From: an uncultured Dehalococcoidia bacterium
GTDB taxonomy: Bacteria; Chloroflexota; Dehalococcoidia; Bin125
Length of the DNA stretch: 64,000 nt
NCBI GenBank assembly: GCA_958295515.1
Contig: CATQGW010000001.1
Location: forward strand, 248,001-312,000
Direction of reading: 5' to 3'
Both the position numbers and the translations under genes were made by a program. Positions 3 through 4,273 of the stretch are shown in pieces; the stretch's first letter is position 1; the number at the start of each line of letters is the position of its first letter. The notes beneath the pieces were generated by a model, which saw only the letters and a program-made list of their open reading frames with translations, was not told the origin of the DNA and made no database searches.

Positions 3-1500
3 GCGGTCGATCTGGCCGAACTGAGCGCTATCAGTGGGCAGACCGGCTGGAGCGGGACGGGCCGCATACTCGTCGATTTCGGCGAGCATCACCGCAAATT
101 CGGTGTAGTCCCGAACAAGACGATCGATCCGTTCGTGGCCTTGACGCGGTACGCGGCCTCTGCACTCGAAGCGCCAGCCACAGGAGCAGCCGGCGTCCGA
201 GTCGGGTTAGACATCGCTGATGCCGCAGCCATCAGTCGACACGCCTGGGAATACGGCCTCGGCGAAGGGACCATTCGCCAGCGCATCCCGTCGCTTCTGC
301 ATGCGCTAGATCCAAATGAGGAGGTGGCGTTCTTGACCACCGGAGTAGAGGCCAATAAGACCGTCCTCATCGCCTTGACCGATCGGCGCATCATCTGGTC
401 GGACAAGGACCTGGAACAAACCAACGCGATCGATCTGGTCGAACTGAGCACTATCAGTGGGCAGACCGGCCGGTTAGAGTCGGGGGATATACTCGTCGAT
501 TTCGACTGGCATCGCCGCAAATTCGGCTGGGTTCCGAACAAGACGATCGATCCGTTCGTGTCCTTGACGCGGGACGCGGCCTCTGCACTCGAAGCACCCG
601 CGCTCAGCCAGCTTGAGGAATCAGGCGAATCAACAGATGCCTCAACGCCGGCCACAGAAGCGGCCGGCATCCGAGTCAGGTTAGACATCGCTGATGCCGA
701 AGCCATCAATCGACACGCCAGGGAGTACGGCATCCGCGAACGGATCATCCACCAGCGCATCCCGTCGCTTCTGCATGCGCTAGATCATCTAAATGAGGAG
801 GTGGTGTTCTTGACCAGCGGACGACATGCTACCGGAGACGTCCTCATCGCCTTGACCGATCGGTACATCATCTGGTCGGACAAGGGCCTGGAACAAACCA
901 ACGCGATCGATCTGGTCGAACTGAGCACTATCAGTGGGCAGACCGGCGGGTTAGGGTCGGGGCATATACTCGTCGTTTTCGACGGGCATCACCGCAAATT
1001 TGATGTAGTCCCGAATGAGACGATCGATCCGTTCGTGGCCTTGACGCGGGACGCGGCCTCTGCACTCGAAACGCCAGCCACAGGAGCGGCCGGCATCCGA
1101 TTCAGGTTAGACATCGCTGATGCCGAAGCCATCAGTCGATACGCCAGGGAATACGGCATCCAGGAAGGGACCATCCGCCAGCGCATCCCGTCGCTTCTGC
1201 ATGCGCTAGATCCAAATGAGGGGGTGGTGTTCTTGACCACCGGAGTAGAGGCCAATAAGACCGTCCTCATCGTCTTGACCGATCGGCGCATCGTCTGGTC
1301 GGACAAGGACCCACAACAAACCAACACGATCGATCTGGTCGAACTGAGCACTATCAGTGGGCAGACCGGCCGGTTAGGGTCGGGGCATATACTCGTCGAT
1401 TTCGACTGGCATCGCCGCAAATTTGATGTAGTCCCGAATGAGACGATCGATCTGTTCGTGGCCTTGACGCGGGACGCGGCCTCTGCGCTCGGAGCGCCAG
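3..1500 (+). repeat. In-frame tandem repeat, ~423 bp (141 aa) unit, one longer 477 bp unit; 3 full copies plus one partial at the edge
   Basis: 'acgatcgatccgttcgtg' or a 1-nt variant at 120, 543, 1020 and 1443 (spacings 423, 477, 423). Confidence 0.9.
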
Positions 1501-2150
1501 CCACAGAAGCGGACCGCACAGTAACGCCATTCAAGCCAGTTGCGATCAAAGAGCTGAGCGATCAAGACCGCGCGGATGTGTACCGCCGGCTCGCGACCGA
1601 GATTGGCGACAGCAGGCTCATGACCCGAGGTGAGCTTGATCACCTGCCGACAGTCATGATGCCTGATGAACTCCTTTTGTGGTTCGCCTCAGGAGAACTA
1701 CAAAGCACTGGTAAAGAGCAACGTACGGGTGGTTTCGCGCTCGTCGCCCTCACGGATCGTCGCATCCTCATTCTCGACAAGAAGTTCCTTGCGGGTATTC
1801 AGACCATTGCCATCGATCTTGATCGTGTCAACTCGATCACTGGCGACACCGGGCTTTTTTTCGGCAATGTGAAGATCCAGGACGGCGGCGACGAACGTAA
1901 AGTTGGACTGATCAGGAACGACACAGTTCAACCATTCGTCGCTCGTGTGCAAGAGGCGATCCAACAACGAAAGCAGCACCTTCACGACCAACAAGCTGCG
2001 GCCATCGCAGCAGCATCGGCGCCAACGACCGCGCCGCCCGCCGCCGTCAATGTCGCTGACCAGCTAGAGAAGCTGGCCTCGCTGATGGAGCGTGGCATCC
2101 TCACGCCCGAGGAGTTTGCGCAGCAGAAAGCGAAGCTGCTTCAGGGGTAG
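3..2150 (+). CDS. Tandem-repeat bacterial PH-like (YokE/bPH_3-like) domain protein with C-terminal SHOCT domain; 5' end truncated by window edge
   Basis: Frame of the 135..2150 ORF stays open to base 3 (AVDLAELSAISGQTGWSGTGRILVDFGEHHRKFGVVPNKTIDPFVALTR...). Repeats of 'VFLTTG...LIALTDRRIIWSDKDLEQTNAIDLVELSTISGQTG'; C-term 'ADQLEKLASLMERGILTPEEFAQQKAKLLQG' is SHOCT-like. Confidence 0.8.
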   Translation, partial: AVDLAELSAISGQTGWSGTGRILVDFGEHHRKFGVVPNKTIDPFVALTRYAASALEAPATGAAGVRVGLDIADAAAISRHAWEYGLGEGTIRQRIPSLLHALDPNEEVAFLTTGVEANKTVLIALTDRRIIWSDKDLEQTNAIDLVELSTISGQTGRLESGDILVDFDWHRRKFGWVPNKTIDPFVSLTRDAASALEAPALSQLEESGESTDASTPATEAAGIRVRLDIADAEAINRHAREYGIRERIIHQRIPSLLHALDHLNEEVVFLTSGRHATGDVLIALTDRYIIWSDKGLEQTNAIDLVELSTISGQTGGLGSGHILVVFDGHHRKFDVVPNETIDPFVALTRDAASALETPATGAAGIRFRLDIADAEAISRYAREYGIQEGTIRQRIPSLLHALDPNEGVVFLTTGVEANKTVLIVLTDRRIVWSDKDPQQTNTIDLVELSTISGQTGRLGSGHILVDFDWHRRKFDVVPNETIDLFVALTRDAASALGAPATEADRTVTPFKPVAIKELSDQDRADVYRRLATEIGDSRLMTRGELDHLPTVMMPDELLLWFASGELQSTGKEQRTGGFALVALTDRRILILDKKFLAGIQTIAIDLDRVNSITGDTGLFFGNVKIQDGGDERKVGLIRNDTVQPFVARVQEAIQQRKQHLHDQQAAAIAAASAPTTAPPAAVNVADQLEKLASLMERGILTPEEFAQQKAKLLQG

Positions 2151-2352: not shown

Positions 2353-2658
2353 GTGACCACCCAAACGCTCGCGAACGAATCACTACTTGACGGCAGCGCG
2401 CTGCTCGATACGCTCGCGCTGGAGCAGAGCGCCGTCACTCTCGATCTGGAGGCCGCGACTATCCTGGCCAGGATTTTCGAGCGTGGCCATGCCACCTGTG
2501 AGGATCTGGCGGACTGGCTGGAAGCGCCTGAAGAGTGGATCGCCTTCTCACGCCTGCAGCGTGCGCGTCTGCTCTACGACGCGGGCACGGAGTTCACCGT
2601 TTCACCGGCGGGGCGTCAGCTCATCCAGAGACTGCTGAATGAGAGCGACGGGGAGTGA
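2353..2658 (+). CDS. Small winged-helix-like hypothetical protein
   Basis: 101 aa; C-term 'FTVSPAGRQLIQRLL' resembles the end of a wHTH wing; GTGA overlap with the next gene. Confidence 0.6.
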   Translation: MTTQTLANESLLDGSALLDTLALEQSAVTLDLEAATILARIFERGHATCEDLADWLEAPEEWIAFSRLQRARLLYDAGTEFTVSPAGRQLIQRLLNESDGE

Positions 2659-3221
2659 CCGAAGGTCGCTCGCGCATTGAGCGAGATGTTCAGAAGCGAG
2701 TCAGTGTGCGCCGTGCCATCGAGGAGTCGGTGGCGCTGGAGGTCACGTTGCTTGGCGACGGGAGAGGGATGCCGGAGTACCAGAAGCGCTTGGAGTTGCG
2801 AGACCGCCTGAAGCGACATCGTTTCGTCGCGAATGTCGCGATCCCAGAGATCTTGCATGACGACAATCCGGAGGCGACACCCGACGAAATCGAGATGAGC
2901 GCCATTGAGCAGGCCGACGTCGTGCTCTGCCTTGAGGGGCCGCGGCGAGCGCCGCTTGGCCTCTACACCGAAGCGCGCCTCTATTTCGACAGATCGAAGC
3001 CGGACAAGTGGTACCGGTGTCGGCCGACGGAGCGAGCCGACTCGACGGGGGAAGACGCGTTGATCGCCGCCTTGGCCGGCGATCCGCTCATGCGCATTGA
3101 GACGTTCAACTACGATCCAAAGGAGTGGGAGGAGTGTGGGCGCATCACCGCCGAGTGCATGCGGCGCATTGAGCTCATGGCAGCGCGAGAGATAGACCGG
3201 CACGTCGCCCAAGCGGAGTGA
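2655..3221 (+). CDS. Hypothetical protein, possible nucleoside deoxyribosyltransferase/TIR/SLOG-like Rossmannoid
   Basis: 188 aa; 'ALEVTLLGDG' strand, then 'EQADVVLCLEGPRRAPLGLYTEARLYF', similar to the NDT 'ADVVL...GT..E.G' pattern. Confidence 0.5.
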   Translation: MTEGRSRIERDVQKRVSVRRAIEESVALEVTLLGDGRGMPEYQKRLELRDRLKRHRFVANVAIPEILHDDNPEATPDEIEMSAIEQADVVLCLEGPRRAPLGLYTEARLYFDRSKPDKWYRCRPTERADSTGEDALIAALAGDPLMRIETFNYDPKEWEECGRITAECMRRIELMAAREIDRHVAQAE

Positions 3222-3292
3222 CGAGCAGCGTGGGGACGACCGCCGCGATTGGGTAGACTGTGCGGGAATGCGCTGTGTGGATGGAGGCTGCT

Positions 3293-4273
3293 GTGCCTGA
3301 GATGCCTGACGCTTTGCCGATGTATGACCAGCTGCCCTATCGGGAGAGGAATCCGGCGAAGACGGCTTGGGGGTTGTTTGGGGATGATGACCAGGTGGGG
3401 ATGTTCAACCTGCAGACGCCGGAGCGGATTGTGCAGGCGGCTCAGCTGGTGCGGAAGGGGGCGATGTTCCCGATGAATTGGGATCAGTCGCAGCCTTCGC
3501 CGCCGCTCTACAACCGGGGGGCGGTGCGGCACACGGTGATGCGGCGGGCGGGCTTTGGGCACCACGGCGACGATGTGCTGGACAATCTCTACACGCAGCA
3601 GTCGTCGCAGTGGGACGCGCTGACGCATGTGGGGGATTTCGAGCACGGCTTCTGGGGCGGGGTGACGAACGAGTGGCTGATTGAGAACCGCGACAATCCC
3701 AAGCTGGGGATCGAACACTGGGCGCGGCGCGGGATCGCGGGGCGCGCGGTGCTGCTGGACCTCGGCCGCTGGTATGAGGCGCAGGGGCGGCCGCTGCCCT
3801 TCGACGAGACGTTCCGCATCCCCGTCGACGATGTGGAGGCCTGCCGCGCGGCGCAGGGGGTGGAGTTCCAGGTGGGCGATGTGGTGCTGATTCGGCTGGG
3901 CTGGATTTCGTGGTACGAGCAGCAGGGGATGGGCGTGAAGCAGGCGCTCGCGCAGATGCCCAACCTGGCCTTCCCGGGGCTGGCCTGCGCGGAGGAGATG
4001 GCGGCCTACTGGTTTGACCATCATGTTGCGGCGCTCTGCTCCGACAACCCGGCGCTGGAAGCCTGGCCGCCGCCGAACTTTGCGGACCCCGACGGCTTCC
4101 TGCACCACTGGATCATCGGCCGCTTCGGGATGGCGATCGGCGAGATGTTCGTGCTCGATCAGCTCGCCGACGACTGCGCCGAGGACGGGGTCTACGAAAG
4201 CTTTTTCGCCGCGGCGCCGCTCAATGTGACCGGCGGTACGGGCAGCCCGCCCAACGCGCTGGCGATCAAATAG
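3293..4273 (+). CDS. Cyclase family protein (kynurenine formamidase-like)
   Basis: 'NRGAVRHTVMRRAGFGHHGDDVLDNLYTQQSSQWDALTHVGDFEHGFWGG'; GTG start chosen for GGAGG 5 nt upstream; ORF-track start is 3260. Confidence 0.8.
   Translation: MPEMPDALPMYDQLPYRERNPAKTAWGLFGDDDQVGMFNLQTPERIVQAAQLVRKGAMFPMNWDQSQPSPPLYNRGAVRHTVMRRAGFGHHGDDVLDNLYTQQSSQWDALTHVGDFEHGFWGGVTNEWLIENRDNPKLGIEHWARRGIAGRAVLLDLGRWYEAQGRPLPFDETFRIPVDDVEACRAAQGVEFQVGDVVLIRLGWISWYEQQGMGVKQALAQMPNLAFPGLACAEEMAAYWFDHHVAALCSDNPALEAWPPPNFADPDGFLHHWIIGRFGMAIGEMFVLDQLADDCAEDGVYESFFAAAPLNVTGGTGSPPNALAIK

Follow-up and report, generated by a model that had tools for sequence, protein, structure and literature searches.

Gene extent and domain composition

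The window that we analysed is a stretch of 64,000 nt (G000:C1:248001-312000) whose left edge cuts a gene, present there as an open frame of 715 aa at 3-2150 on the plus strand, running off the edge and with its stop codon ending at 2150. The contig continues leftward, and after extension in this direction the complete gene was found to encode either 1019 aa from a GTG or 998 aa from an ATG, the latter with an AGGAGG-like site upstream, a plausible ribosome-binding site. The tandem array of PH-like domains that the original prediction saw at the edge was confirmed by this extension: in the protein four similar PH domains (U1-U4) are flanked by one diverged PH domain on either side, and a SHOCT tail follows at the C-terminus, which makes six PH domains in total, four similar and two diverged. 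The gene occupies a slot between a serine-hydrolase gene on its left and a putative-cyclase gene on its right. The features of the locus are the following (window coordinates, unless a contig is named):

G000:C1:245861-247090, serine hydrolase, left border of the slot
3..167, plus strand, C-terminal part of U1 (the whole unit, G000:C1:247757-248167, starts left of the window)
180..590, plus strand, U2, PH domain of 137 aa (bPH_3 match at G000:C1:248306-248569, window 306-569)
591..653, plus strand, linker between U2 and U3 with an extra 51 bp (EAPALSQLEESGESTDA), from the alignment; the same 51 bp also precede U1
654..1067, plus strand, U3, PH domain of 138 aa with one inserted His codon (PH fold in the U3-U4 model)
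1080..1490, plus strand, U4, PH domain of 137 aa, the modelled unit (bPH_3 match at 1206-1469; AlphaFold)
1518..1967, plus strand, diverged C-terminal PH unit (Pfam bPH_3 core at 1656-1952)
2058..2141 (approximate), plus strand, SHOCT domain, C-terminal tail (E=4.1e-9 in the window frame)
2353..2658, plus strand, ORF of 101 aa with no family, the first of two extra ORFs in the slot
2655..3221, plus strand, ORF of 188 aa overlapping the 101-aa ORF by 4 bp, with a weak likeness to DUF4406 below the cut-off
3260..4273, plus strand, putative cyclase, conserved, right border of the slot

The curated cut-offs of the Pfam models used are 23 bits for bPH_3 (PF14470) and 27 bits for SHOCT (PF09851). 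In the 998-aa protein bPH_3 matched in six stretches, above its cut-off (151.5 bits, E=9.4e-45); the single matches in the genome search of G000 ranged from 22.7 to 51.1 bits. SHOCT matched above its cut-off at residues 969-996 (35.8 bits, E=5.9e-9), that is, at the C-terminal end, where a SHOCT-like tail had been predicted. The diverged C-terminal PH unit aligns with the C-terminal PH domain of two relatives, G009 and G004. We considered and rejected a wrong reading frame, as the Pfam matches fit the present one, as does the homologous C-terminal module, and no codon position is clearly the freest.

Fold and arrangement of the PH units

The AlphaFold model of U4, for which the input included seven related units, had a pLDDT of 82.7 and a pTM of 0.79. 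It consists of two N-terminal helices, seven strands and a C-terminal helix, i.e. a PH fold. A fold search of the PDB with this model gave PH-like structures as top matches (Rtt106, Lam6, talin, Sin1); a bacterial PH protein, 3dcx, came out at rank 16 (E=3.7e-4). A search of the PDB by sequence with the array gave no useful relative. The model and its fold matches, together with the six bPH_3 stretches, bear out the PH fold that had been predicted.

The model of U3 and U4 together, built from five sequences only, showed two PH folds joined by a linker with pLDDT below 50, with an overall pTM of 0.48. Judging from this model, the linkers of the array are probably flexible for the most part; the five sequences gave no defined arrangement of the domains, and a defined arrangement is possible. 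We also considered a single-chain ring or arc, in which tandem units would replace homo-oligomeric PH rings and the repeat number would set the ring size. Single bacterial PH proteins do assemble into C5 and C12 rings via strand pairing between neighbours (PMC2817789), the U4 model resembles 3dcx and the chain has six PH domains. However, the two-unit model, with its few sequences, is without a defined arrangement, the linker lengths differ, close relatives differ in their number of units (4 and 2), and the ring formers PHb1 and PHb2 belong to another family, bPH_1 (PF08000; 3dcx, 3hsa, 3b77; PMC2817789), so that we hold a ring or arc to be quite improbable. PHb1 and PHb2 have the same overall PH fold as the array unit, but they are single domains in non-covalent rings, whereas the array has six PH domains in one chain. 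Among the families matching the 998-aa array at E up to 0.1 there was no PF08000, which speaks against membership in bPH_1, and the array of the relative G626 scored 26.4 bits against PF08000, below the cut-off of 27.7. No obvious membrane helix was seen in the array protein, the highest 19-residue hydropathy being 1.46.

Repeat units and their history

Pairwise identity among U1-U4 is 88-92% in DNA and 75-84% in protein, and the longest exact repeat within the gene is 61 bp; the description of the copies as near-identical was therefore overstated. The spacing of the repeats is 423, 477 and 423 bp, where the longer period is due to the 51-bp linker plus the 3-bp insertion in U3. Hence, the predicted unit of ~423 bp holds for two of the periods and not for the third. 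There are two diverged PH domains in place of the one described. An assembly artefact (short-read collapse of the array) is unlikely, since an assembler should resolve an array whose exact repeats are this short.

The 51-bp linker is common to U1 and U3 and missing from U2 and U4, and U1 and U3 group in the tree of PH units with a support of 88/92. This fits a history in which one unit was duplicated and the pair was then duplicated as a block of 900 bp, although 8 of the 20 informative sites conflict with this order: 12 sites have the pattern 13|24, 6 sites 12|34 and 2 sites 14|23. Exchange between the units is possible from these patterns; as for gene conversion among U1-U4, pattern switching along the units was not significantly clustered (p=0.10).

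All length changes in the array are in-frame, and the frame stays open through every unit; the probability of a stop-free array frame by chance alone is about 0.11. The original prediction also proposed a phase-variable or length-tunable sensor, which we regard as highly improbable. The array does consist of tandem repeats, and copy number differs between congeneric species; but the period is long (~423 bp), 8-12% of bases differ between the copies, which share only short exact stretches, the frame is always kept with no frame-switching tract seen in the array gene, and the length difference is between species, not inside one population. With units this long and diverged, changes in array length would need rare unequal recombination.

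Substitution pattern among the similar units

We compared the units by the Nei-Gojobori method, which gave dN/dS of 0.8-1.6 and dS of 0.07-0.13 among U1-U4. Variable sites number 30, 32 and 20 at codon positions one, two and three, the third position being the least variable, and the nonsynonymous share of the changes is 0.79 versus 0.70 expected without selection, a difference that is not significant (p=0.057). From these dN/dS values and this share, amino-acid change among the copies is hardly restrained.

In classical PH domains three loops make the ligand side. Enrichment of the U1-U4 changes in all loops together was not significant (p=0.27), and enrichment in the three canonical ligand loops, which were picked from general knowledge of PH domains after the variable sites had been viewed, was marginal (p=0.06-0.08).

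Genomic slot and neighbouring genes

A search of genome contigs with the array as query found no close relatives, and the slot in the relatives named here was read by using the neighbouring cyclase gene as query. The relatives with the same slot are Chloroflexi/Dehalococcoidia MAGs, presumably from sponge or marine habitats. Our comparison covers the 14 relatives in which both borders could be read. The slot is empty in 12 of them, with 53-62 bp between the border genes. One other (L020) has a slot of 637 bp (L020:9367-10003) filled by unrelated DNA, in which we looked for a remnant of a PH gene and found no PH similarity; a 167-aa ORF lies in it on the opposite strand. The last (L028, the same as G009:C14) carries a PH-SHOCT protein of 839 aa, in which two bPH_3 stretches pass alone and four PH-like segments are recognised by alignment. 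Insertions may have occurred repeatedly at this junction.

The relative G004 has a single PH-SHOCT gene, outside any serine-hydrolase/cyclase neighbourhood. GC3 is 0.61-0.70 in the PH genes versus 0.84-0.89 in the conserved neighbours. For the 188-aa ORF that follows the array gene, no relative was found in the 392 other genomes of the class or in plasmids or phages.

Occurrence of bPH_3 proteins and related systems

A bPH_3 match was found in 3 of 20 genomes of the family, in 48 of 393 genomes of the class (mostly as a single match in a short frame) and in 61 of 400 genomes of the phylum, where at least two matches in one frame occurred only in G000, G626 and G475. These surveys are of sampled genomes with one Pfam model, which diverged units can escape (three of the six units were reported for G000). 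While the surveyed matches are mostly of one PH domain in a short frame, the array has six, of which four go back to a late expansion; the original claim that a domain usually present once had expanded is upheld by this comparison.

Three of the other long frames from the phylum survey, including the single-PH frames of G614 and G496, were rejected as arrays because by eye they look like fusions of one PH domain to an ABC transporter. The cyanophycin metabolism-associated ABC transporters (NCBIfam NF052233) likewise have one N-terminal PH domain joined to an ABC transporter, but they lack both SHOCT and an array; in the 839-aa relative, the PH units at the N-terminus match this model weakly, far below the cut-off. 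In G702 we noted a single PH-SHOCT gene (L074:3009-3632, minus strand) near genes that by eye are DNA-methyltransferase-like and DUF262-like.

The closest likeness in composition is to proteins with bPH_3 (PF14470) and SHOCT, including the "PH domain-containing proteins" of phages (phrog_2700), which have the same PH family and the same C-terminal SHOCT but in most cases a single PH domain. phrog_2700 matches the array with E=1.9e-66, and the C-terminal module of the array is 26-32% identical to the phage proteins. Homologues of this C-terminal module with a single PH domain and SHOCT are found in temperate phages: in Staphylococcus phage vB_SauS_321c the gene lies after an ImmA/IrrE peptidase gene and one gene from the integrase, and in a Streptococcus phage it has a CI-like repressor on one side and the integrase on the other. 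The region between repressor and integrase in temperate phages often holds superinfection-immunity genes. A role of the array in phage conflict is thus a lead that this context would offer. Against a reading as defence, none of the PADLOC defence models matched the 998-aa or the 839-aa protein, and the locus in the window is bordered by genes of metabolic type. In the literature collection that was searched, nothing relevant came up on tandem bacterial PH arrays or on PH proteins in prophage defence.

Comparison of orthologous arrays

G626 and G475, which belong to one genus, have at the same syntenic locus a PH gene with 4 PH units (615 aa) and with 2 (315 aa), respectively. The order at the locus, with genes named by eye, is ABC permease, Rieske-type protein, PH gene, amine oxidase and two GyrI-like genes. 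The first unit of one protein pairs best with the first of the other, and the last with the last. Copy number therefore differs among relatives; an absent PH fold, or a copy number and divergence identical in all relatives, would have counted against the original prediction, and neither was seen.

This single pair of genomes was used to compare rates between orthologues. The flanking genes have dN/dS of 0.05-0.09 and dN of 0.010-0.042, versus 0.28-0.38 and 0.23-0.26 for the PH units, whose dN is 5-25 times that of the flanking genes. The SHOCT tail is 97% identical, with dN/dS of 0.05. As the PH units exceed the flanking genes in dS too (0.59-0.91 versus 0.21-0.44), recombination or a higher local rate may explain part of the difference.

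A tree of 15 PH units clusters them by protein (G626 100/100, G000 U1-U4 98/99, G009 a and b 97/96), with weak deeper branches. Clustering by protein argues for independent expansion, and the simplest reading of the tree is that the arrays grew separately in each of at least three lineages; homogenisation of older arrays would look similar.

We considered at this point whether the data could be explained by relaxed selection, with a mobile PH-SHOCT gene that is heading for loss and in which duplication and drift of the PH part matter little. A dN/dS near 1 among U1-U4, the nonsynonymous share reported above, the patchy presence and the low GC3 would all be expected in this case. The open frame with only in-frame length changes argues the other way, weakly, given how often such a frame would be stop-free by chance. 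In the G626/G475 pair, the PH units with dN/dS below 1 and the strongly conserved SHOCT tail indicate selection there, and arrays arose in at least three lineages. On balance we rate relaxed selection as somewhat unlikely.

Putative function of the array

The reading that we prefer, and to which we give about equal chances of proving right or wrong, is that the array is a soluble cytoplasmic multivalent binding protein, made of flexible PH beads and a constant SHOCT docking tail and under fast change. Precisely, each PH bead would bind a ligand surface, either a lipid head group or a protein, and several beads would engage together, with their weak contacts summing. The constant SHOCT tail would be the docking point of this string, either on a complex associated with the membrane or on a conserved partner in the cell. 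The number of beads would shift through in-frame tandem duplication, and the beads would diverge quickly while the tail would not, as is seen in the orthologous pair G626/G475. Avidity-based binding, which the original prediction had also suggested, is plausible for an array of this sequence. A direct test of SHOCT self-association was not supportive (PMC3581485), so the docking role that we assign to SHOCT is a guess.

As for the pressure behind the fast change, we would look first to a changing target, for example a component of a phage or mobile element, a suggestion which is tentative and on the doubtful side but which the accessory, low-GC, presence/absence distribution fits. Taken further, the array could represent a new class of bacterial conflict proteins, in which an arms race with phages or mobile elements would change the number and the binding surfaces of the PH beads, SHOCT remaining constant as the link to a fixed effector or membrane partner; in this full form the proposal is unlikely. 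If it were true, the PH bead would be the counterpart of the repeat modules in other variable recognition proteins.

A component of the membrane or envelope stress response was considered as well, in which SHOCT would sit at the inner leaflet and the PH beads would sense the state of the lipids; lipids are bound by eukaryotic PH domains. For phage-shock systems it has been proposed that SHOCT-like domains place or anchor other domains at the inner membrane (PMC11237479). Nevertheless, we noted no gene for PspA, Toastrack or band-7 beside the array, and the fast divergence of the PH units is ill-suited to a constant lipid ligand, which leaves this explanation with a slim chance.

Proteins with bPH_3 and SHOCT are widespread in bacteria and little studied. 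If the multivalent binding protein that we prefer is the right reading, the arrays would separate a variable part (the number and surface of the PH domains) from a part that is kept (SHOCT), i.e. a recogniser from its connector to the cell. The G626/G475 locus, with 4 versus 2 beads, offers a ready natural comparison.

Additional observations on the neighbourhood

The serine-hydrolase gene, present in one copy in G000, is found in two tandem copies in L013, L014, L019, L020, L021, L023, L024 and L026. Left of the window, by the array locus, there are three tandem genes (L003:1131-5756, minus strand) that by eye are carboxylesterase-like.
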